Positions 40,235 through 63,230 of a stretch of DNA of 64,000 nucleotides are shown piece after piece (position 1 is the stretch's first letter; each line of letters opens with the position of its first letter). Location of the stretch: positions 4,234,404 to 4,298,403 of the forward strand of contig OZ004597.1 of the NCBI GenBank assembly GCA_963924555.1, in the 5' to 3' direction. Below the pieces are notes generated by a model. It did not search any database and was not told where the DNA came from. It saw nothing but the letters and a program-made list of their open reading frames with translations. Both the position numbers and the translations under genes were made by a program. The stretch is from Crambe crambe. Taxonomy: Eukaryota > Porifera > Demospongiae > Poecilosclerida > Crambeidae.

Positions 40235-42602
40235 CTTGATATACCTGCATCATAATGATAATAGATGGCTTCTAATTTCATGATTAGGTGATTTTCACTA
40301 TCAACCCCAAGGTAACAATTTGTTCATGGGACATTTCCCTTATAAGTCAATATCAAGAGTTACCCAGTTACCCTGTAAATTCAAAGTAATAAAATTATTC
40401 ATGTCTACAAATTATTCATTTTTGTTGTTACAGTAATTTTAAATCAGTTCTTCAGATTCAGCAAGCAGACTCTGGGTTGGTTAAAAGTTGGTAGGTAAAT
40501 TGCCAATGTACTGATCAGTAGAGTCACCATGCCACTTACTATGTTAATGATCTATCTCACAATTATAGTATTTTCTCAAGTGAACACAAATGAACAAGAG
40601 AAAAAACTTAGAATACTATAAATAGTGATAGAGTGATAGATAAATGATTACTGTAATGACACAAGTCAGTGAACAACACACACGAGTCAAAGGTCACTTC
40701 ATGCCACAAAACAATCTAAACATAATCTTGCATATCAAGCTATGTAAGTTAAGGTGAGAGAAAATTCTGATAACTGTAATAAGTATCAGGTGCATACTCA
40801 ATCAGATCGACAGGTTGAAATACATGCGCAAACACACTTTGATAGAAATTGCATATGTGTTAAATTTCCACTTACGAGTTTGCTAAGTGAAGAGAAATTA
40901 AAGTACTTCATACTGTGATTTAAGGCTCCATCTGTTAATTTATTACCTTCAGGCTCAGTTGTTTTTTTTGGGTAGTAGAAGGTACTCTTTCATGAAACAA
41001 ACTTTCTAGCAGCTGAAGTGTTATAATTACATAGCATGTTGGCGAAAACTAAGCTAGTTTACATGCTTGCTCACTTATACTTTAGATTATATATCCTCAA
41101 TCAGTCCCACGAATTGCCACAAATTCTTTTTAACTGTTACTCAAAGATCAGAGCAGAAGTGCTACTACATCATGTAGGAGCATGGGATTTCCTTTGTAGT
41201 CTATAAGATAAAAGCATGAATTTGAAGCTCTGATAGACTAAATTTTTGCCTTGCAGAAGCATGACTCATACACAGCTGCTCATCCACAGTCAGTATTTCT
41301 GATCCTGCTCAAAAGAGTTTCTGGACTTATATATCCCACTTTCCTATGCAGCCAGTGTTGTGTTCAATACTAGTTCTCAGGTTGAGTTCAAGACATGCAT
41401 TGACTTGAAAAAAAATCAAACTTGTTCCAATAAAGTGTGTGCGTGCATGGCCACATAAAATTTCTGACTTCTCTACCAAAGCATATGTCAGCTGTTCACT
41501 GAATAGTTGAGTCTGAAATAATATTCCATCAATATTATATTCAGAAGAGATCAAATGTTCATTGGGGCAGGGAAGGGGGGGGGATCTTGCAATGAAATGA
41601 CATCAATTGAAGCAAAGAATTTTGCATCATGTGTTACATAAGAAAAGCTGACAACCCCACCTAGTACTGATCAGGGAAAGACTTCCAACTGGCATTGGCA
41701 AAGTATTTGTTTTCAAGTGTTTCCTTTCATGTTCAACCATAAGTGTGGCCTGATTGGTACTGATAGTTGTGCCATCATTTTATCATTGATGGTGGATGAA
41801 GTCTGAGGGGGAACCTGTTGATCGCTTAAAGGAGAGTGGCTCATGGATAAGGAATTACTGGCCACTATGAGTAGTTCTAGAAGTGCTTCTCTTCTCCAGG
41901 GCTCATTGCAATATCTTTCTTGAAGCGCATGCTTATACACATAGCTATGTAAGGGGTACCATATACGAGTTAATTTTGGCGGGAGTTTTATTTGGGGTTT
42001 GTACCAAGGAAGGCTGTTGGCGGACATTAGCGGTGTGTTATTGCACACTCACAGATGCCGCTTCCCTCTCTTTTTTTGGGGTCTCGGTCCTCTTCACTTT
42101 ACGATCTATCTCTTTTAACTATCAACTGAGCTTCCATCAAGGAAACACAAGAACTTTCGAAGAGCCATCATATCGCAAAACAGCTGGAAACAGAGCTAGC
42201 TAGCTGTTTGATCTTGAGTCTGCAGCTCATTGCTTGCTGCGCACGTGAGATACACTCGAGCCCCACCCCTGGGTCCAGCCCCCCGGCCCCATAGCTATGG
42301 ATATTGGCAGACATTATTGGCGGTTCCAAGAGACCGCCAAACTGTCACACCACCCACACCGCCAAATTTAACTCGCATTCGGTATTCCGAATGGTTGGTA
42401 ATCCTGAATTGTTAAAATATTTCTGAGACTTCTGAGCTCAATGTCAGAGTACTATAAAGTAGAGCTCATAAGCTCGAGGAGTTATGAAAATATTTTGACT
42501 GTTCGGAATGGCCCCGCTTTTTGATGTCAAGCACTGTTATGAGGTTGGAATTTTGTGATATTTTGGTGCATGTGTGAACAGTGGGTAATAGGCTCTATTT
42601 CC
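40235..42602. other. No recognisable gene
   Basis: AT-rich sequence upstream of the aldo/keto reductase. Open frames around 41713-42203 overlap on both strands and show no family features. A promoter for the reductase must lie near 40250, but I cannot point to a specific motif. Confidence 0.5.
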
Positions 42603-43741: not shown

Positions 43742-46155
43742 CTATGACCAAATATTCTGAGCTTGTGAAAATATGTCTTGTGAAATAGTTACTTTAAACA
43801 TCAGTCTCAAGTATTCTCGGTGAATGACAGTTAACAATGGTATAATATCTTGTGGAATCCTTAGAGAATGTGTAATGAAATTTGGCTCTGCTGCTATTAT
43901 GCAGTCTAAACGTAAATGGTAGTGACAAGTTTGTTCTTGGCGTGGAGTCACTAAGGTCCCATTCTTATCACGAAACTGACGCCTCTCTGACCTGGCTACC
44001 ACTAAATCAAATGGAGGGGGTGGAATAGATGAATCCGATAACCGAACAGTGGTCTTGCACCCCTGACACATCCTAATATTTCCTTGAATAAATTTGACAT
44101 AAAATGGATTGATGTTAGGAGGTAGTATTGGCATACTGGAAGTGCTCAATTGTGGAGGTGTACAAACAATTGTTATGGGTGGATTTGAAGATGACGTGGT
44201 AGGAAGTTGAGGAGTCACAGATTGGTGTACTGACACACAAGCAGAGGCCAAAATATTGCATGCATTTGTTGAAGGAGTCACTGGTATACGACTCCCAGTA
44301 GAACCTTGTTTCTCAAAAACTGGCCTGGGAACACTAACCTCGGGACTAACAGCTGGATTATGTGACTTGGTACGACGAGGAACACCACCTTTCTTTCCTC
44401 TGCCTGATGGAAGTCCAGTCATTGCAAGAGAAGTAATATTTGGCTGTGCATTGGAACTATTGTACCAAGATAGAAAATCTGAAAGATTATTATCCATTTC
44501 TGCCACAGCTAATGAATGAGAACAGACTCCGGAAGAAGACCAATTCAAGCACCTGCTATCACAAATATATCGGCCTCCAAATTCTTTCTTGACAAGGTGA
44601 GGCATCTGTGAAGATGTAGAAAGAACCATTTTAGCTGAAATATCACCAGGGGCTGGTGTAATAGCATTTTTTGTAGCCAAGAGCTTCTCTGCCTTGTCCC
44701 ACATGAATTGCAGGGTTGCCAGTGTTAGCTTAGATATGTTGCTATCTTCTACTCTTATACTTAAATGCTTCTCTTCATTAACATCCTTTTGGTTACATAA
44801 TTGAGGGACAGATAATCTACTTTTCAAAGTGGCCTTATCAAATCTTGCTATAATTTGGCGGCGCTGTTCTGGTCTCATTTTCCCCCACTCGACTGCAGAT
44901 ACTGTGTAGTGACTATATTCTGGTAGCAATCGGTATCGACCTCTGGATGACAACGCTCTAATGACTTCTTCTCGCTGCTGCTTCACCAATACTCTCACCT
45001 TATCATTAAACTCTGGCCACTCAGATTCCTTAAAATTCACTTTTAATTTTAATACAGAATTTATACTCTCGGATGAATTTGTGGTAAAAATACTTGGTGG
45101 AAATCCCAAACCAGCTTTTTGCCTGATATCTTTGCACATACAGAAGCAAACGGCTTGAGCTTTGTATCGCATAAAATAATCATAAAATTTAGGAGCCTCG
45201 GAACAAGTGTGCTTTGTTTCCCTTGCATTCCAGGTATGCATACAATTATTAAGGCGCTCACTAAACTCCTCTTCAGATGCTGAATCAACTAGACCTTCAT
45301 AGTAGGTACTTCCAGATCGTTTTCCAAATATGTCTGCAACAAATTCATCTGCTATCTGACCAGATATTCCATACTGAGCAAGTTTTTCCAATATGTTCTT
45401 AAAATGTATGAAACATCTCAATTGTAATGCTGATGGAAAGCTGTGGCTGAATGCTTCAATTAGAGCCTCTTGACCATCTGTGCCAAAAGCACGTATATTT
45501 CTTAAACACTTGTTAAATCCAACTAAAGAACTTCCAAAATAGTTAAAGGTGGCAAAATCCATCCTTTGATGGACAAGAACTGGTCCAAGAATGAGTGGAT
45601 GCTTTTTACTACAGGTGTCTTCAAGCATCAGATGAGGAAAAGTTGTTGGAGTGACGTAAAACTGACCCAAATTATATGTTGGATCAGCTGTTAATATGCC
45701 AAAGTTTTTGTTCTGTGTCAAGAATCTCTCCATATCTTCCAATTGCCAATCAAAAAAAAGGATACTCTGAGGGTCTGGTGCAGCTTTGACATCCCTTACA
45801 AACGCTTCCTGTGTTCCCTGTGCAAGCTTACACGATAGCATTACACTATATAAAACATTGTCATCTTTTTTGTGCTGCTCCCTTCGAAAATTGGAGATTT
45901 GCTGTCGATTTCGAGGTAAGGATGACATTCCTCTGGCCTCTACCTCACCACCTTCTTTCTGTGTAGCAAGAAAAATGACTTCTTTGGGCTTATTCCTTAT
46001 AGACAGCTCCTTGTGGAATTTCTGTGCAGATTCAGAAATGCGAAAGAATGGAACATCAGATTTAGAATTCCCATGAGGCTTGATTTTTATTTCCATCTCA
46101 GGTCCATCAAAATAATACTGTAACATACAGTACTTATTTTGAACCCTTGTAGTAT
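43742..46155 (-). CDS. MULE-type DDE transposase with SWIM-like finger, main exon (exon 4)
   Basis: Last and largest exon of a four-exon gene. It opens DTTRVQNKYCMLQYYF after an AG acceptor at 46157-46156. The core has the three acidic residues of a MULE RNase H fold: GILTADPTYNLG (about residue 358 of the full protein), AFGTDGQEAL (about 432) and TTNSSESINS (about 566). A helical insert with LRCFIHFKN lies between the second and third. A SWIM-like zinc motif ICDSRC...GVCSHSLA follows. The Pro- and Ser-rich C-terminal third ends with a Cys pair (MCQGCKTT). No stop or frameshift is seen. Mutator-like transposases cut DNA at the element ends, so this copy could be active. Confidence 0.9.
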
Positions 46156-46883
46156 CTAAAAAGGAATTAATAAATTATTATTAGATCATAGCTTAGTAGA
46201 AAAACAAATCACCGGTCAGCACAGTGCATTTTTTTTTTACATTAGTTACTGTATCTAGCAACTTTAGGGGGGAAAGCACCTGCTGAACAGTTAGCAAACA
46301 AGTGGTTAGTTTCTTGTACACGGGTCACTTAGATAAAATGCAGTCACCTTTTTGATGTAATGCAGATAGCCATAATAAAAATATGGTGTATCTAGGATGA
46401 CATCACTACAGGCTCTGAAATATGAGCTCAAGATAAGTGGGCAGAAATTGTTTGCCTGGACAAATTTTGATATTTGTATCATTCTATAGCAGAATGATTG
46501 TCCTGTAACAAATTAAAAATAAAAAATTCCCATCAAGCAACTTTGATCTGCCAAAAGTTGTCTCATTTTAGATAGCCATAGAATAAATAGTTATTGCATC
46601 CTTCAGTATTATGGAATACTATTATTACACCCTCCTCATGTGTAAATCATGGTATTCCATACTCTGAAAGGGTGTAATAAATAGGGAAAGGAAGGGTACA
46701 AAAAATTGGTCGTACACATTGATTTTTATGTTGACCGAGGGACTCCTTAGCAATTTTATTAAAGTGACAGTCCCCTCTAGAAATCAATTAGTTTGCTTGG
46801 ACTGTCACATACTGGCCAGATTGAAGCATAGTACATTATATAAGTATCAAGGTTGTGTATTAACCTATAATCATAGAACTTGC

Positions 46884-47460
46884 CTTGTATATCACAAATG
46901 ATGCGATGAAAACGCTCATAAGTTTTGTGGACATAATACCTTCGAATTAGCAAAAAATAATTGCTACGATCAGCTCCAGCAGTGGCATATACTAAAGAAT
47001 TAGATGTAGTATAACGAAAGTAGGTTCGTTTTGTACCGGTAGACTTCCAAGAACCTAAATCATCTGCTTTAAGATCACCAAAGCCAACTGAGTCGATATC
47101 AATGAGAAAGATAGTATTTTTTACAATCCCTAATGGCTGCACTTTACACACACGAGAAAGATCCAGATCTTTAGATAGAAGTGTTTTGATAAGCAAATGA
47201 ACAGGATACCCACTGCCCATTTTATCAAAAATCGGAAGTTCTTTGTCTCCATCATAATATTCCAATTCAGCAACAGTACTACTTCCACTCTCACTATCAC
47301 TGCTAGAAAAACCCTCTTCAAATTTCAATCTACAGTAATAAAAACAAAATATCCCCGAATCATTGATATTGCAGATTTTACATACCTTTTCTTTGCCAAG
47401 CATAGGATCGATGGAGAAACCACATCTTCATCTGAACTGGAATCAGTCGCACAGTAAGAT
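46884..47460 (-). CDS. MULE-type transposase, exons 2 and 3
   Basis: Exon 2 (47460-47386) encodes an acidic, Ser-rich segment (SYCATDSSSDEDVVS). Exon 3 (47329-46884) continues with SSSDSESGS, then a domain with PLGIVKNTIFLIDIDSVGFG and LKADDLGSWKSTG, shared with the second copy at 60.4-60.8 kb (VPFSLSINGIFVVDLS...CDDMGVWTWNG). Intron 2 is GT-AG. Intron 3 has a GC donor (CAAG then GCAAGT at 46883) and ends AG before 46155. Phases match on both sides, so the four exons sum to 3,015 nt, 1,004 codons plus stop. The acidic N-terminus and the shared domain have no function I can name. Confidence 0.82.
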
Positions 47461-47617
47461 CTATAGGAACAAAGAAGTGTTCTTCATGAGTTCATATTTT
47501 TTATGTACAAATGTAGGTCCCAATGTCATACAGGTATTCAGCTCTCTCCCCAATCGGTTCTTTCTTCATATAACTTGTACCGAGATTACATCATAGTGAT
47601 GCAATAATGATATATGG

Positions 47618-49065
47618 AGCATAGTCTCTCTGAGCCTCTCTTGGTCTCTTGCAGTCTCTCTTGGTCTCTTGCAGTGTCTCCGAGTCTCATGTACTTTCTC
47701 TTGGTCTCTTACAGTCACTCTGAGTCTCTTGCAGTCTCTCTGGGTCTCTTGCAGTCTCTCTGAGTCTCTTGCAGTCTCTCTTGCAGTCTCTCTGAGTCTC
47801 ATGTAGTCTCTTTTGGTCTCTTGCAGGCTCTCTGAGTCTCATGTAGTCTCTCTTGGTCTCTTGCAGTCACTCTGAGTCTCTTGCAGTCTCTCTGGGTCTC
47901 TTGCAGTCTCTTTGGGTCTCTTGCAATCTCTCTGAGTCTCTTGCAGTCTCTTGCAGTCTCTATGAGTCTCTTGCAGTCTTTTTGAGTCTCTCTTGGTCTC
48001 TTGTAGTCTCTCTGAGTCTCATGTAGTCTCTTGCAGGCTCTCTGAGTCTCTCTCAGTCTCATGTAGTCTCTCTTGGCTTTTGTAGTCTCTCTGGGTCTCT
48101 TGCAGTCTCTCTGAGTCTCTTGCAGTCTCTCTGAGTCTCTTGCATTCTTTCTGAGTCTCTTGCAGTCTCTCTGAGTCTCACGTAGTCTCTCTTGGTCTCT
48201 TGTAGTCTCTCTGGGTCTCTTGAGCTCTGAGTCTCTTGCAGTCTCTCAGAAAGACTGCAAGAGACTCAGAGACTACAAGAGACTCAGAGTCTCTTGCAGT
48301 CTCTCTGAGTCTCATGTAGTCTCTTTTGGTCTCTTGCAGTCTCTCTGAGTCTCATGTAGTCTCTCTTGGTATCTTGCAGTCTCTCTGAGTCTCTTGCAGT
48401 CTCTCTGAGTCTCTTGCAATCTTTCTGAGTCTCTTGCAGTCTCTCTGAGTCTCATGTAGTCTCTCTGAGTCTCTTGCAGTCTCTCTGAGTCTCTTGCAGT
48501 CTCTCTGAGTTTCTTGCAGTCTTTCTGAGTCTCTTGCAGTCTCTCTGAGTCTCATGTAGGTTCTTTGGGTCTCATGTAGTCTCCCTTGGTTTCTTGCAGT
48601 CACTCTGAGTTTCTTGCAGTCTCTCTGAGTCTCATGTAGTCTCCCTTGGTCTCTTGCAGTCACTCTGGGTCTCTGGGTTTCTTGCAGTCTTTCTGAGTCT
48701 CTTGCAGTCTCTCTGAGTCTCATGTATAGACTCTCTTGGTCTCTTGCATGCAGTCACTCTGAGTCACTTGCAGTCTCTCTGTGTCTCTTGCAGTCTCTTG
48801 CAGTCTCTGAGTCTCTTGCATGCATGCAGTCTATAGCTCTCTGAGTCTCTTGGCCGTAGTCTCTCCGAGTCCTTTGCAGTCTCTCTTGCATCTCTTGCCG
48901 TCTCTTTCAGTCACTCTGAGTCTCTTGCAGTTTCTGAGTCTCTCTTGGTCTCTTGCAGTTTCTGAGTCTCTCTTGGTCTCTTGCAGTTTCTGAGTCATGC
49001 ATGCAGTCTCTATGCAGTTTCTGAGTCTCTTGCATGCATGCAGTCTCCAAATCTATTATAACTCT
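47618..49065. repeat. Left subterminal satellite array, 20-bp unit
   Basis: Dozens of copies of ctctgagtctcttgcagtct with variants (atgtagtctctcttggtctc). A short inverted patch occurs at about 48246-48290 (agactgcaagagactcagag). Long open frames across the array on the minus strand (Arg/Glu-rich repeats) are by-products of the 20-bp period, not genes. Confidence 0.95.
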
Positions 49066-49492
49066 AGTCTCTGTTAGTCGGAACCATGGGGGCCAGGGAT
49101 AGGAGACAATTATACATGACTACATGTGCAAAGTGAAACATTTTCAACTCTATTTTTGACTCTTGTTTTTTTATTAAATCACAACTATTGTCTGGTACAC
49201 ATGGTGCAATGGGGGTTTGGGGTTGGCCCCCCCCCCCCCCCCCCCCCAAGTAAATTAATTTTCCTCCACCTATGAGAATTTTTATGGCTCTTCAAGTTAA
49301 CACAACTTTAGAATTGTATATCTACCCCCTACATGCAATCAGAAAGAAAAATAATTGTAATGATAATTATCAATTATACAAGAATCAAACCTTAATAATA
49401 TAGCTAGTTATTAGTTCCATGCATAGAAATCAATGAACTAAATTTCGGCATTTAAAGGGCCATGAATGCATCAAAATTGTGCTGATGCTCCT

Positions 49493-50757
49493 TTAAGAAA
49501 TTGTCGACATCATGAGAATTTTTTTTCTAATAGGTAACTTCTCTTCAAAGGAATCCACGATATCCGCGATAGTATTAAATATTTGTAATATATTGTTTGC
49601 ACTTGGTTCAATTTCTTTATTTTTTAAATACTGCAACACTCCTTCTAAAATAAAAAACTCAAATTTTGATCTTGCTCCAGGTGACATGTCTTCACCCTCA
49701 GCGATACCGAAAACAGCACTCTTTTTAATATTGATTTGGTGGCTATGCCTTCTGCATTTTCGTGTGTGCAGAAGTACTGCTTCAGGTCGTCTTCCATGCT
49801 CATTTCCACAGTTCACACATCTACAAAGTGATGTGCACATTCGATTGCTCTTTAGACATGAACACCGGATTGTAGTAGTATACTTAGAGGTTATTGGCAC
49901 ACAACTTTCTGCTTCTTGAGTGACTGCATTTTTACCACATGTACAATAATCAATACGAGTTTTGGGAACTTCCACCACAGTTATTGAGGTTAACTCAGAT
50001 GCCACGGGTACGACTGCATCATAATGTCCCAGACCATTATGATTGTATGCAAGATACACTGGTGTAGCACATTTAATTTCTTGTGTTACTATCTGGATAA
50101 CTGGATAACATTCAAGAGTTGTAAACACTATAAAGTGTATTCCAAGAGCTTTTGACAAAGCATGTAAAACTGTGTCCCCTAAGTCAGAATAAAAATATCC
50201 TAATTGGTTGAACTTCTCAGCTTCCTCTTGTATATTACATTCACCTAGGAAATCTGTGTAATAGCTGCTGTTATTAGTCCATTCACGTACTGCAATCTGG
50301 CGTAATTGCTGGCTCAGAGAATGCACACAGTTATATCTTAGTTCTGGATGAACTATTTTCAATTCAGAGGATATATTGGTGTTAATAAACTTAACCCAAT
50401 AGCTACTGCAACAAAACAGCAATTTCCATCTTTACTGACTTCTTGCCTCTTCAATTTCCATGAATTAATAATGCCATCAAGATTTGTACTATGACTGGGA
50501 GCATCAGTGCTTAAGTTACTGAAAAATATACTGGATACAGAAGATACAAAAGGAAAGAATTGGTACTGAAACAGTGAATTTGAATTCATTGATTTGGCTG
50601 CATTCCAAAGGTGAAGTCCCTTTTCAATTATATTCATAAGTTCTTCAATAGTAATAAGTTTTGAAACACTCTCATCCAGTGCCAGTGTTGTTGTGGTTGA
50701 CTTATCAAAATCATAAGTATTATCTATGGGGTGAATACCCCATATTGTTTGTTCCAC
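49493..50757 (-). CDS. OTU-like cysteine protease and CXC (Cys-rich) region, C-terminal part of the transposon gene
   Basis: Minus strand, following the DDE part after a frame change. 50757-50359 ends in RQEVSKDGNCCFVAVAIG, the OTU catalytic Asp-Gly-Asn-Cys block. After a second frame change near 50365-50420 the domain continues (HPELRYNCVHSLSQQLRQIA) to the catalytic-His block AYNHNGLGHYDAV. Next comes a CXC/tesmin-like cluster: YCTCGKN...IRCSCLKSNRMCTSLCRCVNCGN (about 49960-49800). The frame ends at 49493. OTU proteases remove ubiquitin-like modifiers and CXC clusters bind DNA in other proteins; here they would be fused to or translated with the transposase. The two frame changes mean this copy is either dead or mis-assembled. 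Confidence 0.78.
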
Positions 50758-50764
50758 ATCTTTT

Positions 50765-52384
50765 TCAGTTATGCCGTAATGATATTTTGATGCACTCTCT
50801 TCTTCTAAGGTGATTGACTGTCTTTCTGTTTCTTTTCCTTGTGACTTGCAGTTGTATTGATATAGCTAGTAATACTGTCATTAGTGCAAGTGCCATAGGC
50901 AAGCCTAGACGAGTCCTACTAAAATGAGGTTTGATGTGCCGATGCAATCGCTCGTTGCGGTTTATTCCAAAACCTGGAGGAATATCAGACAGGCATCCTT
51001 TATTTATGTGGATTTCAAGATTTTTTGCTTCGTTTAATACATTTTCATTGAGTATTACCCAGCCATTTGTATCACAGTAACTCCACTTTTTGATGAACTT
51101 ATTCAGATTATCTATAATCTTTACAGGATTTGGAGTATTTTTCAATCGCTTGTAACCTAAATCATCAGGTTGTCGAAAGATAAGCCTCAGGTCAGTAATG
51201 CATGGGGAATATAGTGGATGATGTTTGGGCATTTTTTTGGTAAGCCGCTGTACAGCATGGAATAAATCTAATTTTATATTAATTTCATTACCAAACACTT
51301 CAATTAATTTTCCTTTGATGCTACAGCAGTTATCTGCAATTATAAGGGTTTTATGATTACCTACATCCATCCTTTCTTTAACACCAAGAAGAAGTGTCTT
51401 AACATTATCCATTGATGTAGTTTCGGTAAATTGCCAAGCCATTACCTGGCCTTTTTCATTAAGCACAATAAATACAGAATCATACTGTGTTATCCATTTA
51501 CCATCACTTCTAAGGTAGCCAATATTAGCAGCTACTTTAAAGGTATGATCAAAGCTGATGGATTCTTGTGCAAGTATCCTAGACATAGCATTAGTATACA
51601 TCTTCCTATTGAGCATATACTCAGCAAGAAAGCACTTGCAGATCATATCATTACTTGGGTATGGAGTTTCGAGGAGTAATGATGGGATGATCTGGCTTAG
51701 GTCAAGTTCATTTAATGACAGTGTATTAATAACCTGATCTGATCTCCTCAAACTAGCTAATTTCCTTTGCTTACTGACAAATCTTTCCACAGCTGAAACA
51801 GACAGTCCCTCTTCAATTAACCCAATAACGATATCAACAAAGGATCTCAAGAAACCATTATTATGAAATAGTATGAATGGAATCTGTTCAGATGTAATTA
51901 GTTCAAGGACTCTTGGATCAGTAGTAAAGAATTGGTGGCTATTTGGGCAAACATAACGAGCTGAGATGAGGACAACTGTTGATTCAATACTATGCAATAA
52001 TCTAGGTTCGAGTCCTGCAGATGTGCCAAGTTTCCATGCATTTCTTTTGATTTCTTGATTGCATTCTACACATTGAAGATTCAATGATGGAATTGACAAA
52101 AATGGGTCCCATACAATAACTGGTGGGAGAAACATTTGAGCGGGATTACTGCTAGATATGGAATAAGGAGGAGGAGGAGGGACAATGACACACTCCGGAT
52201 TCCTAAATTCACAAAAAGATTAAAAAGTCCACTAGCTACTTACAGTTAGCTAATACCTCAAAAAATCTTCAACCACTTTAGATAGATACATTTTCCATTC
52301 AAGAGGAACTTTGAATCCTGATGTAACTTGGATTTCAGTAGCAAATACTAACGAAAAGAAACAAATAAGCCTCACTGCATCCAT
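50765..52384 (-). CDS. DDE transposase with N-terminal DUF6729-like zinc region
   Basis: Exon 1 (ATG 52384 to 52257) and exon 2 (from 52202) join in frame as VVEDFLR-NPECVIVPPPPP across a 54-nt GT-AG intron. Then comes a zinc-binding region IVWDPFLSIPSLNLQCVECN...ARYVCPNSHQFFTTD, resembling DUF6729. The RNase H-like core has SISFDHTFKVA (Asp196 of the 456-residue exon 2 frame), LIIADNCCSIKG (Asp268) and NRNERLHRHIK (Glu395), with a conserved KLDLFHAVQRLTKKMPKHHP helix in between. This DDE spacing marks a cut-and-paste transposase. The frame closes at 50765, but a better continuation (YQYNCKSQGKETERQS...EEESASKYHYG) in another frame leads into the OTU part. Divergent from the ATPase gene. Confidence 0.85.
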
Positions 52385-52542
52385 TTTAAATGCTATATGT
52401 ACACGTGGTTTTTTTTCTTAAATAATTGAATATCTCATGCTTTTGCATGCTCAGCAACAGATTTTGACTGAAGTTTAAAGATGAATGACTCTTTCCAGCA
52501 AGCAGCAAACCAGGAGCTCCATCGAGAGGTATTGTAGATATC

Positions 52543-52581
52543 ATAATTGTGCAGGTATAACAATTATACCTGCACAATTAT
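52543..52581. promoter_or_regulatory. Perfect palindrome between the two divergent transposon genes
   Basis: ATAATTGTGCAGGTATAA (52543-52560), a CAA spacer, and its exact inverse (52564-52581). It lies 159 bp upstream of the DDE start codon and about 60-100 bp before the first recognisable ATPase codons. Its position suggests a protein-binding site or a shared control element, but this is inference. Confidence 0.55.
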
Positions 52582-52639
52582 TTAATCAAGCATGCTAGCT
52601 GGCTAAGTTGACATACTGACATTTAGCTATACATTTCTT

Positions 52640-55600
52640 TTCTAAGTTTTATAAGGTTGACCTGGAAAATTCCACATTTGGAACGGTCTCTGCCAAGGGG
52701 GAGTATAGGGAGAAGTCTAATTTTCTATTGATTTGGCCACTTATGTCGACTCAGAAAATGCTGGATTCTTTGCTTGGATAAAACGCAGAAGCGATGGACA
52801 AAAAAGGTAAGTTCAGTGATAGCAAGGAACCTTGAAGACCTAGCTAGGGTTATTATTTCTGTAATTAGTTCACTTCACGAGTTATAATGAAGTTGGTTCC
52901 CCCCTCCCCCCCCAAAAAAAAAAAATAAATAAATAAATAAATAATAATATATATATATATATACATAATCAGACCAGCTTTGAAAGAGTTAATTCTATGT
53001 CTCAACCTTTAATTATACAGGCTGTGCTATTACACTATTGATTCCATGCTTCTGCGACAGACTTTCCTTAAAGACATAAAATTGACATTTGGATCTGGGG
53101 GGGTTCGTGTGCTCCCTTTCAGATAAGGAAGTTTCTGAATTTCAACAGCATCTCGAAAAAAATTTTGCTTTTAATGATCCAACAAAAGTTAAAAAAGGAT
53201 TGCTCTGTGCTGGAAAACAACCTGGAGATAATGTCTGGGTTATAAATAGATCTCTACATATTAATGAAGATGGTATTCAGATACAAGAAAGTGAATCTAA
53301 ATGGATCTGGCAGCCAATTGGAGGACCATGCATAGACTTTAGTAGCAAAAATAAAAATATGCCATACACAGTTATCAATCTACAGAATGATATCAAACTC
53401 CCCCTTCAATCTGTGAAACCATTGAACGACCTTTTTGAGCTTATGAAGAAAGTGTTCAAGCATAACTTCATACCATGTAAGTCAGTCACATTTTCCCAGG
53501 CTTACAATGCATTTCATCAGCACCTATATATGTGCTAAACAGTTAACTAAGTGGAAAAGCCAAAATCACATAACACCTTGGAAATCTTCTAGAAGTACAG
53601 TGTGGTTGCAGAGTGTGCATTCATATCTGTTAAGCTCGCAATGTATGCTAATTTGCTGTTCTGGCACTGGTATCCAATAATTATTACATCACAGACCACT
53701 TTTCATATACTCTACATAGGTCATATTCATAGCCATACCCAAACCACTTTGGAATCCCTGTATTATTATTCCTCAATCTAGGTGTGCTTTCTATGGCAGC
53801 AGCCATTATGGTACTTCATTATGAATTGCTGGTAGAAACATACAATGCATGCCCTCTTCCAATGCTGGTTGGAGAAAGTGAAACAGGTATTTTTTTTAGT
53901 GTCAGCTTACATGGACATGTGGTTTTTTTGTTTTTGTTTTTTGTGTGTATACTTAGTGTAAGCTGCAACCTTTATCCATGCAGGTAAATCTTCAGCAGTA
54001 AGGTGTGCTTTGTCTCTGTGTGGCCAGGAAGATTGTGGTAATTTGATGAAAACTAAGAGTACATCTGATACTTTATGTAAGGAAAGGTGTTGCAAGTCCA
54101 CCTTACCATTCAGTCTTGATGATCCCAAGAGTGCAGATGGGATAGATGAAATTCTTATTGACCTTTGTAATGGGCGACAGACTGGAAACATGAAAGTTGG
54201 GTTGCAAAAGCCCCGATCTATCCCTGCAATTTTACGATGGGAACAATTCAAAGGTATGGATATTCAGTGTATGATTTTAGTTTTAGCTGTATAGCAAAAC
54301 AGTTGTTCCAAAAATGGTTTGATTGTCCTTGTACTCATACGCACAACTTGCCACCATTGAGGCAAACAAATTTGCAAGAATGATTACATCTCTTTGGGTG
54401 TTAATTTGTTACACTGTATAGAATGTAAGTTATAATATTGTTTCTGCACTCAGGTACAGTTCACGAGCCCTTTTACTACCATTTACCACTCCATCAATTG
54501 GACCCAACACAGAAGAAGAAGGAAAGGAATTTAGCTTACTAGCTAAGGTACAAAGAGAGGCATCAAGTGCTATTGGGTGGGCAATCAGTTTGGGGAAAAA
54601 ATTCATTGAAAGTGGCAAAAGTGATATCTCCAGCCGAATCAACCCTGCAGTGAGAGATAGACTTCCTGGAATTGATCCTCGATTATGTACAGGGTATGCC
54701 TGTCTTCTTTACTTTGCAGAACAGGTATAGCTAACTATTAGAATTGCCAGAATTAATTGTTCTCATCACTAAATAGCTAATTGAAGAGGCACAGATGCCA
54801 TACTTGAAAGAAGAAATAGAGGAATTCATGCAAGAAATCCATCCACATCTGACCTCAAGTCAATCTACTTCAGTCATGCGAAGTACTTCTGGTGATCTGA
54901 ATGTTGTAGCTGAAGTCCTAATGCAATTAACAGAATGGGCTAAGAGCCACACTCATGCTGGAAAAATCTATAGCTAAGGCCAGTATTTCACACTTCTAAC
55001 GATACCTACTGTAATGTATTAGCATACACCTTGGCACCAAAGTGCTGATGTGCCAGTGCTTCTTGCTTGAGCGCTCATGCTTGACTCTTTGTACTACTCA
55101 GTACAACGGTAGCTATCTTCTATTTGAAGTGTAGGCTGGTATCTATCAATTTGACTGCAGGGGTACTAATATCACATATGTATCACCACTGTAGCTAACC
55201 CCAGCAGGCACTATAGTCTTAGGCTAACTTATTAGAAGTGTAGCTATTTGCATTATCTTAAAAAAAGACAACAGCTATACTTTACTGTATATTATATTTC
55301 CAGGTACTTCAAGCAATGAGAACAGGGATGACATATAATGGGAAGGAGGTAGTTGGCATTTGCCTTGATGATATCCCTGTATCGGTAGATCAAGCTTTCT
55401 TCAGAAAAGCAGTGAAGGAAAATAGTATGGGCAAGCACAATGTAGCGAAGGATTTCGTGCCATTGGATAGCAAAAATCCAGTAATTCGCAGACGGACTAA
55501 TAGTAGATCAAGAAAATGCACAGTAATTTGGCTAGACAAACTGCCACCGTCTCTTCGAGCTGCAATGAAGCAAGGTATTCATTCTGTCTCCAATGATTGC

Positions 55601-55983
55601 TTGATTATTATATACCCATGTCAAATTGCTTTCATGCAGTTACATCACCAGCTGCCTCTGCCAGCACATCTTCAGACAAGGAAGAAGACAGTCTTAAAGA
55701 TAAGGAAGAAGACAGTCCTCTTGCTGAAGACCTGAAAGATAACATTGCTGAAGATGGCAGGATTTCTCCTACTGAAGATAAGAGTCCTCTTTCTGAAGAT
55801 AAGGAGAAAGACAATCCTGATGGCAATAAAGATGCCAAAGACAATACACAAAGAAAACCAAGAAAGCGTACTGAATATTCTGAAGATGACTGTCCATGTC
55901 CACCTAAAAAGCATACCAGACAAAATACAGCACTTCCGGATTGGAGTAAAGATATAAACTCAGATAATCCACTTGGACTATAA
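52640..55983 (+). CDS. P-loop ATPase with acidic C-terminal tail, multi-exon transposon gene
   Basis: Exons read: about 52640-52806 (STFGTVSAKGEYREKSNF, then NAGFFAWIKRRSDGQKR after a one-base frame change near 52720), 53021-53476, 53782-53886, 53984-54253, about 54454-54725, 54778-54976, 55304-55575 and 55640-55983. The Walker A motif GESETGKSSAVRCAL spans the intron between 53886 and 53984; the conserved FSLDDPKS and DLCNG blocks follow. Later blocks are SSRALLLPFTTPS, LIEEAQMPYLKEEIEEF and ICLDDIPVSVDQAFF. The last exon is an acidic Ser/Glu/Asp run with Lys-Arg patches (RKPRKRTEYSEDD). A frame change also occurs at 53118-53124. I recognise a transposon-associated ATPase but cannot name its role; remodelling of the transposition complex is a guess. 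Confidence 0.75.
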
Positions 55984-56267
55984 TTGGATGATAGCTACCC
56001 TCAATTTGATTCATGATTCTGAATAATCTTTCATTCATGCTTTGTTTTGATTGTTTAACGTTTCATTCAAAATGTGCAATAATTATATATAATTTGCTGT
56101 TGTATGTGCACATACCAACTAATTTTAAGCACACACCCTCTAAATGACGATGTAGTGCTCGTCATAATTACTTAAACAAAAAATACCCAACCATTAACTG
56201 GTGCATGTATGCAGATACTAGCTATATGCTTTGGATGTACTGGACTTGTTTAGTGTGTAAAGGTATT
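55984..56267. other. 3' flank of the ATPase gene
   Basis: AT-rich sequence between the ATPase stop codon and the right satellite array, with no gene. Confidence 0.6.
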
Positions 56268-57352
56268 CTGAGAGACTCATGAGACCGCAAGACATGCAAG
56301 AGACCAAGAGAGACTCAGAGAGACTACAAGAGTCTCAGAGAGACTGCAAAAGACTCAGAGAGACTGCAAGAGACTCTGAGACTGCAAGAGACCGAGAGAG
56401 ACTCAGAGCGACTGAAAGAAACTCAGAGATTCTGCAAGATACGCAAGAGACCAAGAGAGACTGTGCAAGAGACTCAGAGACTGCATGCAAGAGACTCAGA
56501 GAGCCTTCAAGAGACTCAAAGAAACTACAAGAGACTCAGAGAGACCACAAGAGACTCAGAGAGACTGCAAGAGACTCAGAGAGATTGCAAGAGACTCAGA
56601 GAGACTGCAAGAGACTTAGAGAGACTGTAAGAGACTCAGAGAGACTGTAAGAGACTCAGAGAGACTGCAAGAGACTAAGAGAGACTGCAAGAAACCAAAA
56701 GAGACTGCAAGAGACTCAGAGAGACTGCAAGAGGCTCAGAGAGACTGCAAGAGACTCAGAGAGACTTCAAGAGGCTCAAAGAGACTACAAGAGACTCAGA
56801 GAGACCACAAGAGACTCAGAGAGCCTTCAAGAGACTCAAAGAGACTCAGAGAGACTCAAAGAGACTCAGAGAGACTCAAAGAGACTCAGAGAGACTGTAA
56901 GAGATTCAGAGAGACTGTAAGAGACTCAGAGAGACTGTAAGAGACTCAGAGAGACTGCAAGAGACTCAGAGAGACTGCAAGAGACCAGGAGAGACCGCAA
57001 GAGACTTAGGGTGACTGCAAGAGACCAAGAGAGACTGTAAGAGCCTGCAAGAGACTCAGAGTGACTGCAAGAGACCAAGAGAGACTGTAAGAGACTCAGA
57101 GAGACCACAAGAGACTTAGAGAGACTGTAAGAGACTCAGAGACTGCAAGAGACTGCAAGAGACCAGGAGAGACCAGGAGAGACTGCAAGAGAGACTCAGA
57201 GAGACTGTAAGAGACTCAGAGAGACTGCAAGAGACCCAGAGAGACTGCAAGAGACTTAGAGTGACTGCAAGAGACCAAGAGAGACTGTAAGAGACTCAGA
57301 GAGACTGTAAGAGACTTGTAGAGACTGCTAGAGACGCAAGAGACTCAGACTA
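56268..57352. repeat. Right subterminal satellite array, 20-bp unit
   Basis: Copies of agagactgcaagagactcag with variants. It is the reverse complement of the left array at 47618-49065, so the two form very long inverted subterminal arms. Sub-variants (agactgtaagagactcag, agaccaagagagactg) come in runs, as expected from local unequal exchange. Confidence 0.95.
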
Positions 57353-57482
57353 TGTTCTCTACAGGCCGTATATCATTACTACATCACTATGATGTAATCT
57401 CGGTACAAGTTATATGAAGAAAGAACCCCCCAATCTAAGCTAGCTGTGGTTGATACAAGAGATCAAAAATAGCGAAACGCAC

Positions 57483-57562
57483 CTTTTACTTGGAGTGAAT
57501 ATAACACGAGTGTCAGGATCTGAAGAGATCACAATCGCTGACGTTGGGCCCTCACCTTCCAT
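57483..57562 (-). CDS. MULE-type transposase, exon 1
   Basis: ATG at 57562-57560 starts MEGEGPTSAIVISSDPDTRV and ends in phase 2 before a GT donor (57482-57481). Its partner acceptor is at 47462-47461, 10 kb to the left; the join completes an Arg codon and continues SYCATDSSSDEDV in the correct frame. The intervening intron holds the whole 9.87-kb element. The start is about 100 bp inside the right MULE end, where a promoter is expected. An acidic Ser/Asp-rich N-terminus is shared with the second copy. Confidence 0.75.
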
Positions 57563-58090
57563 GCATGACAGTCACAAACGAGGCAGTATATACAGCTAGC
57601 TAGCTGCTAGAGCCTACGCGCATGCGTAAGAGATTTTGCATGGTCCATGATCCAGTCCACGGTCCAGACCACGGTCCATTCCACCGTCCAGAGTCCAGCT
57701 TTTACAAGTACCCGTGCTAAATCATACTTGGGCTCTAAATAGAATCACGAGTGAAAGTTCTACACTAGACTACAGGTTTTGCTAACTTGGGTGAGCGTTT
57801 ATCATAGAAAAGTTGGAATGTTCTGTATATTTATCCCTCTAGAGAAACTCTGCTCAATTATTTATGTCTGCCACTAGAAATATTTGCTTAGTATGGGTTA
57901 CACTAATGTATGCAGCAAGTAGCCAGTCCTTTTCAGGTTCATTTCTGCCACAATTGCTTAAATTATGTTCAAACTTGTTATAGTTTCAATTATCCCTGTA
58001 AGTCAGTGCATTGTCATAGTATATTGTTTCAATTTGGTGTACTGTTAGCTGATATGTATGAGCAATGTATGCATATCATACTTTTTTAGC

Positions 58091-58795
58091 ATGCCTTACA
58101 GAAAGAGATTTCAACACCGAAAAAAACAAGCAAGGGAGAAGCGGGAGAAAAAATTTCAGCAACGGTTGGAATCATCTGATACATGTATTCCTCTCTCTGA
58201 AACTGATACTATACTAACCTCAGAATCCTCTTTCACTACAACTGATGAATCACAATCACTTTCTGGAGTGACTGATCACATTGGTACATGCGTAAGAGAT
58301 TCCCCAGGTGATACTACATCGGCTAAGGATAAAGCCAAAATGATGTTGAGCAGAGAAACTTTAGAAGGCATAGGAATGACTGGTAATTTACTGTTTCAAT
58401 AGAGGTAACAAATTCACTGGTTTTCTTTGATTTTGCAGTGATGTCATTTGTCGAAATAACAAAGTATCTACTATCACAGCCAAAAGATTCGGATCAGAAA
58501 CTATATGTGTTGAGTGAGAGGATATCTCAGGACCCCCTTGAAAACTATTTTGGTAAACAAAGGGCTCGAGGTGGAAGGAATGAAAACCCCAACCTACAAC
58601 AATGCCTCCATAATGCTGCTGGGATCCAGCTCTGCTCCAGGAGGCTGAGTAAGAGTCAGGCCCACAAAATCAATGGCCCTAGAACCTGTTCGAGGTAATT
58701 GTAGCAGAAAGAGACGCTTGTTTGGTGATGAAGAGCCAAAAATAGACAATACCCCCCTGCCCAAGCGTAGACGCACACAGAAAAAGAAAAAGTAA
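58091..58795 (+). CDS. Transposon protein, P-like C-terminal region, one frame change
   Basis: Exon 58091-58382 encodes a basic start (PYRKRFQHRKKQAREKREKK) and a Ser/Thr-rich stretch. A GT-AG intron leads to an exon from 58439 with TVMSFVEITKYLLSQ, LSERISQDPLENYFGKQRAR and GGRNENPNLQQCLHNA. The SQDPLE.yFg..RarGG.n.NP block is the conserved helical signature in the C-terminal part of P-element/THAP9-like transposases. A one-base shift near 58650 then gives VRPTKSMALEPVRGNCSRKR, also typical of the end of these proteins, followed by a Lys/Arg tail (KRRRTQKKKK). An N-terminal catalytic part is not seen here, so this may be a fragment or a separate subunit. Convergent with the next gene. Confidence 0.6.
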
Positions 58796-59822
58796 TATTT
58801 TATATGAAAATGTTTATTGGTATATAGAGATTTCCGCAGACCAGTAGACTTTTGAGTGTTTATTTTTTCTTTACTTTTATATATTTCCATCCATGACCCA
58901 ACTATCGCAAACCCTCGTACAGTAACAAAGAGCTTTACTACTTCACTTAGCAAGCAGTGGGAGTCTTCTGCAGATTCAATGTCTTGTGATAGCAATGTCC
59001 AGTGAAATTGGACGTCTTCATTTTCCAGTATCTTGTCATGTATATTTCGTATATATAACTCTTTATCAGATGTCTTAGATTGAGCCAGATATTTTGGAAG
59101 GTATGTTTGCACACACTTCTCAATTTCTATAAACAAATGAAAAGTTTCATCATTTAAATGATACAAGCCACCTCTGTTTACAGTATCCATCCACTTTGTA
59201 GTGTATGATAGCAGGCTATCTCCCTCTCCCTCTCCAGCAACAGCCATTTCACCTAGACAAGTTGTGTATTGGTTATATACATCACCAAACATCTTTTCAT
59301 AACGTAGTAGTAGTTTTCGTGCAACATATCCACCAACATATCTCATTACGTTTAATTCATTTGCAGAGAGGATATCATCAGGATCAGTATCAGTACTACT
59401 TTCTAACTTACAGTATCAGTACTACTTTCTACTGTTGTGTCAAAATGTTCTTTCAAACACAGTTCAAATATTTCTTGATACAGAGACTGTTCAAGTAGTG
59501 TATCAGTAATGTCTACGTTTAGTTTTTCAATCATTTCCTTCCACAAGGAACATAGCTCATTTTTCATTCGAATCAAGTGAAATTTTTTCCATAAATGTTC
59601 TCTCTTAGAGCTACTTAGTTTATACTTTGTAGCTGTAGAGCTTACAATGCCTTGAAGGTACAATACTACCTCAATAGAAAAAGTATCAAAACTTTCCTCT
59701 TCACTTTGTGACTTCTCTAGGATCTGTTTTCCCCATTCCCTCAGCTTACAGCTCCTTGGAGACTGGGAAGAAGTCTTGTCGATTACTGCTAAGAGTGCAC
59801 TCTTGACTGTTTCAGCAGCCAT
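58594..59822 (-). CDS. Transposon-associated protein of the RYVGGYVARKL type, broken by a tandem duplication
   Basis: ATG 59822 starts MAAETVKSALLAVIDKTSSQ. The first part (59822-59403) is helical, with REHLWKKFHLIRMKNELCSLW. A 26-nt direct duplication (gaaagtagtactgatact... at about 59398-59431) then breaks the frame. The second part (59346 down to about 58790) has NVMRYVGGYVARKLL, KWMDTVNRGGLYHL, FHWTLLSQDIES and LFVTVRGFAIVGSWMEIYK. The open frame runs on to 58594, overlapping the 3' part of the plus-strand gene, but the real protein probably ends near 58790. I do not know its function. A decayed relative sits inside the 7-bp-TSD element at 7523-9204, which argues that both belong to one transposon family. 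Confidence 0.65.
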
Positions 59823-59959
59823 CAAAAAAAATAAAAATAAAAATGCAGCAGGACAATATTGACACGTGCGTGCGCATTAATTTTTTGATGATGTCATCCA
59901 TAACGCGGCTGATTTCGCAAAAAAAATACCGTTTCCAATCCCTCCTTCCTCTTTTATCT

Positions 59960-62900
59960 ATGGTGATAGTAATTTCTGACTCCGACTCTGACTCTGATGG
60001 ACATCTGCAAAGTAAGTGGATTTTAACTTCCCGGGCTGGAGTCAGACTCATGAAAATGGGGGAAATCGGCATGGGTTGTAGTTACATAGGGACCCAGGAC
60101 CACCAGTAGTTATTTTGCACTGTAACCAGCTAGGAACATATTATCTTCCAACAGGATCAGTGACTCTGATGAAACTGTTGGAGAGAGGTATGTGTGCATT
60201 AGAGTTGTGATTCTTTTTTAATGTAGTAGCTATGTAATGACTATAGTGACTTTTCTGAAGAAGAGGAGCCGGTAATTAAAATTGTGGATCCTTCAAAATC
60301 TCCTGTAAAGTAAGATTATCAACAACATCAACTTCCCTCATGAAAACCTGTTGTTGTTGTTGAATATGAATATGCATTCTAGGGTGAAGCATGATGCCAA
60401 AGTTGAACCTGGTATAGGTCTCCTACATGATAAACCAAGTCTACCTATATATTCAATGAATAATAAATTTCTTACCACTCAAGACGCTGTTAATGTTTTG
60501 CTTGACCCTGATCTAAAGCCAGATATCATTTGCACTCAAGTTCCATTCTCTTTGTCTATTAATGGAATATTTGTGGTTGATTTGAGTAAACTTAACTCAA
60601 TTAAAGATTTACTATGTGATGACATGGGTGTTTGGACATGGAATGGGAGTTTCAGAAGGTGGTGCACCATTTCTCAGGATGGTTTGGTCAAGCTTCTTGA
60701 AAAGAATATTTCGTCAAATGAGTTGAGGCCTGATTCGTACTGTGTGTGGAAGCGATACTATTTTCTAAAAGCTAGTCCAGATGTACGGAAAATGTTGATG
60801 CTATTAGAAGGTACCTATTAGTCGTACTTTAGTATTAGATCAGAGCTTCCATCTGGTAACCGTTAGTTACAAGAGTATAGCAAAATGCCAATAGATATGG
60901 TCCTCCCCCCACAAAAAAGGTATGAAAATCTTTGATATTCTTGAATGACCCAACCCTTTCTTCCTAGACTGGTATTATTATTATGAGTTCTCTTCATTTT
61001 TCCAGATGCAGATTCCAATACATTAAGCCTTGCTCTAGTTCAGTATTACTTCAGTCAAGGAGAACATGAGGTCAAGGTTGCCCCTCATGGAAATTCGCGA
61101 TCGGGAGATGCATATGTTCGAACATTGCCAAGTGTCATGAGCAAGCTTAAAACTGTATCCTCAGAAAAAACTCCTAAACGAGCTATCAACTTTACATATG
61201 ATGAGCAGGGTGGTATTTTACAAGCATCTAGTGCAGGATCTTTACCCAGGTGTAGGCAGCAGGTGAAAGATATGAGGAGGAAAACTCAACAAGATGATCC
61301 TTTATTTTCTGTAATGTTTATGTGTAAGTCAGAGGAAGGTAAAGGAAAGGACCCATTTGTGAGATTAGTAAATGCTGCCCCTTTTCCCATGATGGTGTTG
61401 ACACATAATTATAGTTTATGTGATATTAATCGTTTCTGCACTAATAAGGATAAATTTAGTGTCCTTGGAGTTGATCCCACTTTTAGTCTTGGTGACTTTG
61501 ATGTTACTGTTACAACATATCAACATCTAATGTTGTCCTCTCATGAAACTTCAAAGTATCCAGTTTTAATTGGGCCCATGTTTGTACATATGAAAAAGGA
61601 TTTCTCTGCCTACCATTTTTTTACATCCGCTCTAATTGGATTGGAGCCCAACCTAGCCAATCTACAAGCATTTGGAACGGATGGTGAAGCAGCATTAGTT
61701 AATGCTTTATCTATGTCATTCCCTAAAGCTTGTCATCTGAGATGTTTCCTACATTTTAAGGGAAATATTGAACGGAAGCTTACAGAAATGAGATTGCCTA
61801 ATGATGTAGTTAAAGAATTTATGCAAGATATCATGGGAAAGCCATCCCATTTCCAACTTGGATTGGTAGATGCTAATGACTCTTCACATCTTGATGATCT
61901 GTTGAACAACTTTGAGAACATATGGAATGTGCGTGAAGAACCTTATCACTCGCCTCCAGATTTTTTCTCCTGGTTCAAGAAGTATCAAAGAAATGTTATC
62001 GCTGAATCAATGACTCGTGAAGTACGGATCAAAGCAGGACTAGGGAATCCTCCTTGTCCGTATTATACGAATGATGTTGAGTCAAAGAACAATGTATTGA
62101 AACAGCATGTACGTTATAGAGCTTCTGAGTTGCCAAAATTTGTTGATAGTATGAAAAATTTGTTTATTGAGCAACGCAATGAAATTTAAAAGGCCATTAT
62201 AGGCCAAGGTGAGTATCGCATACGAAAGGAGTATAAAGCTTGTACAATGGACCCAGCAAAATGGTTTACTCTTTCTGAGATGCAGCATCGTAAACATGTA
62301 GATAAATTGATGAAAACAAATGTATCTAATGTGCCTGCTGCAGGGAGTTCCAGTAATATTCCTGTCATAAGCAATCCACTTGATCAGCTTTTGCTTCCAC
62401 CACATTTTACTAATACTGTGTGGACGAAGGCCAAAAAATTGGCATCAAGTGAGAATATGATTGTGAAATGTCTAGGTGACGCCATGTCATGGATGGTGTG
62501 GAGTGAAAGTAATCAAAGACCTCACTTTATCAGACCAGCAAAAAAAAAAGGTGGATTCCTTTGTGATGATCAGTGTTTAGCGTACAAATGCTCAAAAATA
62601 TGTTCACATTCAGTTGCAGCAGCAGTCAAAACTGGAAACATTGATAACCACATTAAATGGTATCAAACTATGAAGCGGGAAGCCACTGAATTTAATGTTA
62701 CTGCTCTTGCTGATGCTGGTAAGCCAGCTACAGCAGGCAAGAAGCGAAAGGGCATCTCCAAGAAAGCATCTAAACGTGTTAAATCTCTGTGCTTAGACAC
62801 TGATGATTCTCTTTGGAGTTATCCACATACCAGTAACCCCAGTGGTGCATCTCCCATGGCACCAATTCTTCAAACTCCAGTTTCTTTATCATCTCAAAGT

Positions 62901-63230
62901 CCAGTTCCTCAAACTCCAACATGTATTTCGGCTGTGGCTCAGACACCTATTGTGCAGACAGTTCAATATCCACTTTTGTCGAATACCACTGTGCAGTCTC
63001 TTGGTACTATGCATTCACCTACCACTGTGCAATCAATTACTTCATTTTCAGCAGTCCAAACTCCAACTGTACTTCCCCCAAGCCAGACATCGTTCAAGAA
63101 TGTTTCTGGTATGCATCAGAATTTTTATTCTAACACAGTTCAAATCAGCCCAAATCCATCAAGATCACCATCTGGGTCATTCCATGTCAATTCAACACAA
63201 AAAATCCCCGCCCCCTTCCAATTTTCATGA
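59960..63230 (+). pseudogene. Second MULE-type transposase copy with one in-frame stop
   Basis: Paralogue of the gene at 43.7-57.6 kb with the same order: acidic Ser/Asp exons (59960-60011, 60155-60187, 60247-60309), the shared domain (60383-60810; FVVDLSKLNSIKDLLCDDMGVW) and a large exon (61006-63230). The core keeps SVLGVDPTFSLGDF, QAFGTDGEAAL and YYTNDVESKNNVLK, so all three acidic residues are present. The SWIM-like motif is FLCDDQCLAYKCSKICSHSVA. The C-terminus is a Gln/Thr/Pro-rich run (QTPTCISAVAQTPIVQT). TAA at 62187-62189 interrupts an otherwise open frame. Exon 1 as drawn does not match the phase of exon 2, so the N-terminus is uncertain. The TIRs of the first copy were not found here. 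Confidence 0.85.

Follow-up and report, generated by a model that had tools for sequence, protein, structure and literature searches.

Introduction

Eukaryotic cut-and-paste transposons are usually viewed as one-enzyme systems, in contrast to Mu, Tn7 and IS21, which rely on a partner ATPase. A DxxH motif is common to the transposases of hAT, P, MuDR, Kolobok, Dada and the bacterial IS256 (PMC3706591, PMC10045372), and protease domains have been published on transposases: OTU and Ulp1 for Ginger1, and Ulp1 also for some Mutator elements (PMC2836005). Polintons also carry an ATPase, but a packaging one (PMC5718144). Here we analyse a stretch of 64,000 nucleotides from the sponge Crambe crambe (contig OZ004597.1, positions 4,234,404 to 4,298,403; G000:C20:4234404-4298403 in our numbering), which we call the window. 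At 47556-57427 it holds a DNA transposon of 9,872 bp between terminal inverted repeats (TIRs), in which a DDE transposase that continues into an OTU protease domain and a CXC-like cysteine cluster is paired with a gene for a P-loop ATPase.

Elements of the same genome that are only distantly related show the pairing too, which points to a type of two-protein transposon that is little known. The original prediction, made from the letters of the window, called a cut-and-paste element with its own ATPase and deubiquitinase-like domain unusual. That description fits the dedicated ATPase, which is the unusual part, and fits less well the OTU domain, which is already known on the Ginger1 transposase (PMC2836005). 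Our full-text searches of open-licence papers brought up no animal DDE transposase of this kind that has a P-loop ATPase dedicated to it.

Results

Ends of the element in the window

The window copy is intact in its ends and broken in its genes. The left TIR (47556..47617, plus strand, 62 bp) starts GGTTCTTTC and is identical at 59 of 62 positions to the right TIR (57366..57427, minus strand), where the reverse complement of GGTTCTTTC ends at 57427. Directly outside them lie the two 8-bp copies of the target-site duplication, CCCCAATC, at 47548..47555 and 57428..57435, which agree exactly (8/8). We scanned window positions 44001-60000 for 14-bp end pairs with both genes between them, at least 11 of 14 positions matching and an exact 8-bp duplication. 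Two pairs were found; only the 47556/57427 pair matches 14/14, and the other (11/14) lies inside the repeat arrays. The predicted TIR transposon with base-exact ends and a perfect duplication is therefore confirmed, while its description as "complete" holds for the ends and fails for the two genes, both of which are broken here. Inside the TIRs are subterminal arrays, the left one at about 47622..49034 (plus strand, about 1.4 kb) built from a 20-bp unit of two 10-bp halves, and the right one at about 56271..57345 (minus strand, about 1.1 kb) built from the same kind of 20-bp unit, inverted. The inversion is the main relation between them, with 426 12-mers shared in inverted orientation against 153 on the same strand.

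Recurrence of the transposase-ATPase pair

We searched the host genome (143 Mb, 119 contigs) for both proteins and merged the matches. This gave 28 transposase clusters, of which some show OTU or CXC matches alone, and 23 clusters of the ATPase found in the window, which we call type 1. Ten of the 28 transposase clusters have a type 1 ATPase at a distance of 10 kb or less, and 10 of the 23 ATPase clusters are paired in this way. Shuffling the ATPase positions within their own contigs (eight contigs entered with their known lengths, the rest with an assumed 6 Mb) gave a mean of 0.2 pairings and a maximum of 4 in 20,000 shuffles, against the 10 observed. In this count two pieces on C16 enter as two clusters of one interrupted element; of the two, just the piece with CXC has the ATPase within 10 kb. 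The co-occurrence within 10 kb proposed as a check on the prediction is thus found, and ends starting GGTTNTTNC with 8-bp duplications recur in the distant elements C8 (8/8) and C11b1 (7/8). The arrangement of the two genes varies: it is head-to-head in the window, C11a, C11b1 and C3:2437012 (the last by match coordinates), tandem in C8, C3b, C10a, C10b and C16, and tail-to-tail in C11b2.

One lineage, C1, carries a different partner. At all four of its known copies (C1, C3, C17, C6), which closely resemble one another, a DUF3987 P-loop protein stands tail-to-tail with the transposase at a distance of about 1.9 kb, and no type 1 ATPase was found in this lineage. The partner scores 1.4e-14 for DUF3987 (over the cut-off) and 1.2e-9 for phage primase; a separate search against phages gave a helicase as best match (6e-3), and a search of the PDB returned none. 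Aligned by hhalign with the type 1 ATPase alignment, the DUF3987 protein gave a probability of 8.7 over the P-loop region only. Two of eight DUF3987 places (G000:C3:3148685 and G000:C3:2571898) have a KDZ transposase match nearby, at 1.9 and 3.6 kb, and a P-loop ATPase may accompany KDZ transposons too in this genome. Two similar ATPase loci, G000:C8:3463266 and C8:5405831, have no detected DDE-OTU gene; 8-11 kb upstream of each, on its own strand, the MULE model gives a very weak match (E 0.55 and 0.91) that may come from a transposase of greater divergence.

Four relatives were delimited besides the window element. The C8 element (3769012-3780083, 11,072 bp) has TIRs GGTTGTTACTTGG, the duplication AGAAATCT (8/8) and tandem genes. 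C11b1 (2464086-2473151, 9,066 bp) has TIRs GGTTATTTCCC, flanks CATGAAAA/CATAAAAA that agree at 7/8 positions, head-to-head genes and a transposase frame open for 923 aa. C11b2 (2480673-2498066, 17,394 bp) has TIRs GGCTACTCC, and C11a (5109496-5122876, 13,381 bp) has TIRs identical over 110 bp. Across the five delimited elements, two duplications are 8/8, one is 7/8, one is ambiguous and one is absent. Each of the five has a subterminal array at either end, the two being inverted to each other; the unit lengths are 20, 20, 19, 27 and 20 bp. C8 and C11b1 represent distant families (DDE 35% and 42% identical), both with complete ends. At C10a, C10b, C3b and C16 no full TIR pair was found; C16 and C3b each have one end of a sister TIR. 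A solo TIR of the window type with subterminal repeats stands at G000:C5:4555915 (minus strand), its partner end absent from the 12 kb read.

The transposase gene

The window transposase gene, on the minus strand, consists of three frame pieces. Part 1 (50768..52219, with a break near 50865) encodes an N-terminal region with cysteine/histidine pairs and the DDE core, with codons at 51548-51550 (D), 51332-51334 (D), 51266-51268 (the Asp of DxxH) and 50951-50953 (E). Part 2 (50362..50865, with a break near 50400) holds a linker and the start of the OTU domain, including DGNC (Cys codon 50419-50421). Part 3 (49496..50431) holds the OTU remainder with GHYD (His codon 50024-50026), the CXC cluster at 49802-49945 and the C-terminal region. 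In a 98%-identical sister on C11 the frame is open for 857 aa over the first two breaks, that sister being itself interrupted in the CXC region, and the frames of the relatives L005 and L006 stay open for 923 and 907 aa.

The triad is spaced D, 71 residues, D, 126 residues, E, and DxxH starts 22 residues after the second D in all six alignment rows that have a DDE core (a seventh, L050, holds none). Downstream of the core come the OTU domain, with the DGNC and GHYD motifs that we take to be its catalytic motifs, and then the cysteine cluster. The OTU model PF02338 is over its cut-off in two of four near-full-length relatives (L006 3.4e-6, L053 1e-7); among the other two, L005 is under it at 0.0028 and L002 gives no match. 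The CXC models stay under their cut-offs, the best being MSL2-CXC at 3.2e-4 (21.2 bits against 26.7), and TCR reaches 18 bits against 23.5 in the window, where the cysteine pattern is visible at 49802-49945. The predicted gene combining DDE, OTU and CXC is accordingly present, with CXC at sub-threshold strength, and the DUF6729-like zinc region proposed for its N-terminus was not recovered, no Pfam match to it appearing at E<=1 in that region of the window protein or its relatives.

All best family scores for the DDE core are sub-threshold (MULE 0.011 in L008, IS256 0.006 in L053, ISKra4 0.16 in L005), and by these scores it matches no model convincingly. Membership in two described groups was also examined genome-wide with searches that score best candidates only. 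The MULE model PF10551 has 88 places at E<=1, and the KDZ model PF18758 has 72 matches, which collapse by hand to 35 places and serve as a positive control; neither has a single one within 4 kb of the 27 DDE loci. The 923-aa transposase, compared with prokaryote genome contigs, met 13 stretches of which none was confirmed, a weak test for an animal element.

The ATPase gene

The predicted P-loop ATPase gene with an acidic tail was found on the plus strand. Its possible first exon or exons (52660..52806, frame broken) are placed by eye from likeness to the start of the C11b1 gene. An exon at 53014..53475, its start set by eye, encodes an N-terminal domain and differs in frame from the sister near a run of G. 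The P-loop follows in two parts, split by an intron (by eye): GESETG at 53784..53888 and KS at 53983..54255, the latter exon also carrying the Walker B motif LDDP and missing the segment with the sensor-1 Asn, which is present in the sister. Next come an exon with the SR....PF arginine motif (54452..54727), a possible exon at 54777..54974 (an open frame judged by eye, without comparison to a relative), a C-terminal exon at 55304..55573 that is matched in C11a, C11b2, C16 and C3b, and an acidic tail at 55643..55983, whose basic stretches are a possible nuclear localisation signal.

A pattern search of 11 type 1 loci found Walker B [DE]DP in 10, the sensor-1 Asn in 9, SR....F in 10 and an unsplit P-loop in 5 (C10a, C10b, C11b1, C11b2, C21); C3b gave none of these motifs. 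Sub-threshold matches to DUF927 fall on the same profile region in three genes (window exon 0.11, C11b2 0.021, C11b1 0.0014, the longer spliced C11b1 protein giving 0.0051), and the sole genome-wide DUF927 match (E 0.36) falls on the ATPase locus C3:1935528. Superfamily-3-type (SF3) models appear only for the C11b1 ATPase (0.03-0.2), which is also matched by an AAA+ clamp-loader PHROG (4.9e-4); no Pfam or NCBIfam family for IstB, TniB, MuB or TnsC matches the ATPases at E<=1. The safest reading of these motifs and scores is a putative AAA+ or superfamily-3-like P-loop ATPase.

Against the PDB, the ATPase alignment A2 returned nothing below 0.6, and the spliced C11b1 protein returned EngA GTPase (0.008) and general P-loop proteins. 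The ATPase alignment against IMG/VR gave 150 pattern stretches with none confirmed, tblastn of the C11b1 ATPase against phages gave an AAA+ clamp loader as its best match (E 0.08), and the C10a ATPase against plasmids gave two ABC matches (E 0.7 and 1). The C11b1 ATPase gene also contains a short inverted-repeat insertion resembling a miniature inverted-repeat transposable element (L042, about 2520-2700, by eye).

Neighbouring genes in the window

On either side of the element lies a MULE-like transposase gene, at 43742-46174 (minus strand) and 60987-63230 (plus strand); the two look alike, and both are directed away from the element. By eye, each contains a SWIM-like stretch of cysteines and histidines; for the right one the MULE score is 1.3e-4, under the cut-off, and the left one has a genome-scan MULE match at E 0.135 only. 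Farther away are a reverse-transcriptase open reading frame (25614-27230, plus strand, 538 aa, RVT_1 2.1e-26) and an aldo/keto reductase frame (39431-40249, minus strand, 272 aa, 2.6e-42), the latter the clearest host-type gene among the open reading frames scanned.

Discussion

We read the window element as a decayed copy of a two-gene DNA transposon from a transposon lineage that is old and diverse in this host, whose ATPase is a remodeller working with the transposase, and we give this reading, taken as a whole, about an even chance. Its observed basis is the TIRs, the 8-bp duplication, the inverted arrays, the DDE-DxxH core with OTU and a CXC-like cluster, the recurrent ATPase and the variable gene order. 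In such a transposon, the transposase would bind the subterminal arrays and the TIRs, probably assisted by the CXC part as a DNA-binding module, and would cut the ends and join these to the target DNA at positions staggered by 8 bp. Ubiquitin on the transposase, or on repair factors present at the break, might be removed by the OTU domain; ubiquitin trimming of this sort has been raised as an idea for the Ginger1 and Mutator proteases (PMC2836005). The ATPase, judged from its Walker A, Walker B, sensor-1 Asn and SR..IPF motifs, would be an AAA+ or superfamily-3-like DNA-remodelling machine and the partner of the transposase. It could unwind or copy the transposition intermediate, or it could load the intermediate on the target, a role that in bacteria falls to MuB, TnsC and IstB (target loading is described for IstB; PMC11208146). 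We place helicase-type remodelling slightly ahead because one lineage has the DUF3987 protein beside its transposase instead. That protein is related to phage primase-helicases.

Several results weigh against this picture. Neither type of ATPase was found near 14 of the 28 transposase clusters, although several of these are fragments and most flanks were not read, and a TIR-bearing copy with a truncated DDE (C3:975212) has no ATPase in the 10 kb read. C11b2 shows no duplication, and the flanks of C11a match over 6 bp, extending to 8 only on the assumption that two bases were lost from the right end. The type 1 ATPase reaches no family cut-off, its best Pfam score being the C11b1 match to DUF927 (18.8 bits against 22.6), and L015 and L017 show no DUF927 match at E<=1. 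In the PDB, the transposase profile ranks MSL2 (0.008) and OTUD3 (0.075) behind an unrelated PTS protein (0.0024), so this search on its own proves nothing, and an AlphaFold model of the window DDE core alone, without relatives, reached a predicted local distance difference test (pLDDT) score of 33 and was not used further. All compared loci come from one genome. Finally, the two genes give partly different groupings: in small, unrooted trees the DDE core places C8 with C1/C10 (support 0.94) and the ATPase places it with C16/C3b (support 0.96), and across 36 locus pairs, which are not independent, the correlation between DDE identity and ATPase identity is weak (rho 0.25, P 0.14).

The weak correlation and the discordant position of C8 lead us to think that ATPase partners were probably exchanged between elements. 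For close relatives the two groupings agree (window-C11a, C16-C3b, C10a-C10b), and C16/C3b join window/C11a by DDE (1.00). The nearest grouping of the C1 lineage by DDE is with C10 (support 0.98), whose members carry the type 1 ATPase, and from this we infer that the C1 lineage changed its partner. The ATPase thus looks like a recurrent but exchangeable partner, which favours a useful activity over passive cargo without proving it. The window copy and C11a share about 97.5% identity, with 85 mismatches in 6,947 aligned bases, and we therefore take their subfamily to have been active fairly recently.

How else might the same observations arise? The element could be a divergent transposon of the Mutator/IS256 clan (MuDR) whose ATPase is optional cargo, like the extra genes of MULEs and of fungal TET transposons. 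The DxxH after the second D, which MuDR shares with the other groups named above (PMC3706591), and the sub-threshold MULE and IS256 scores point that way, as do the variable gene order and orientation, the different ATPase of the C1 lineage and the half of the clusters that show no ATPase. We nevertheless consider this account rather unlikely: families as far apart as 31-42% identity in the DDE core still have a type 1 ATPase with conserved motifs, and none of the 88 MULE-model places lies near the DDE loci. It would be a different matter if the arrangement were already catalogued, as a Repbase superfamily or as a deposited but unpublished group of animal elements. Repbase does have superfamilies with 8-bp or similar duplications (Zisupton, MuDR; PMC12730594, PMC10045372), but none of the KDZ matches lies within 4 kb of these loci, and the full-text searches of open-licence papers yielded no transposon combining DDE-OTU-CXC with an ATPase; we regard a catalogued origin as improbable. 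Still less probable, to our minds, is that the ATPase is a target-selection factor of the MuB/TnsC/IstB type, inherited with the transposase from a bacterial ancestor. IstB, MuB and TnsC are indeed AAA+ proteins dedicated to transposases (PMC11208146), and the clamp-loader profile that matches the C11b1 ATPase is AAA+, but the IstB, TniB and MuB families are missing at E<=1, DUF927 tops the Pfam list for that same protein, and in the C1 lineage a DUF3987 protein occupies the place of the ATPase.

Beyond the two-gene transposon itself, we tentatively propose, and hold as possible though doubtful, a new eukaryotic superfamily: a C/DxxH DDE transposase, to which a deubiquitinase and a CXC module are fused, served by a dedicated but exchangeable P-loop ATPase in parallel to MuA/MuB and IstA/IstB; in one lineage a helicase-like protein of the DUF3987 kind would stand in for the DUF927/SF3-like ATPase. 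If true, this opens the question of whether two-protein transposition, target control or helicase-assisted copying evolved in animals, and it offers a natural series of apparent partner swaps for comparison.

Each of the known systems shares part of this organisation. The DUF927/DUF3987 ATPases of phages and mobile elements have a like P-loop region, and DUF3987 is over its cut-off in the C1 lineage; DUF927, in contrast, never is. Zisupton/KDZ elements have cysteine-cluster domains, as these elements do. The KDZ model finds other loci of the same genome, however, and none near these. The 8-bp duplication is a further likeness (reported for Zisupton in PMC12730594). With MuDR/MULE and the IS256 clan the elements share the C/DxxH DDE core; for the IS256/MuDR group duplications of 4-10 bp are quoted (PMC10045372), the window element having 8 bp. 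The OTU and CXC tail and the P-loop ATPase set them apart. Ginger1 has an OTU protease C-terminal to its DDE transposase, as here, but that transposase is a Gypsy-type integrase with a GPY/F motif, and the word ATPase is absent from the text of the paper (PMC2836005). The transposases studied here, in contrast, have no integrase-type Pfam match at E<=1. MuA/MuB, TnsB/TnsC and IstA/IstB are bacterial or phage systems that to our knowledge lack OTU or CXC, and their ATPase families are unmatched here; what they share with these sponge elements is the pairing of a DDE transposase with a dedicated ATPase.

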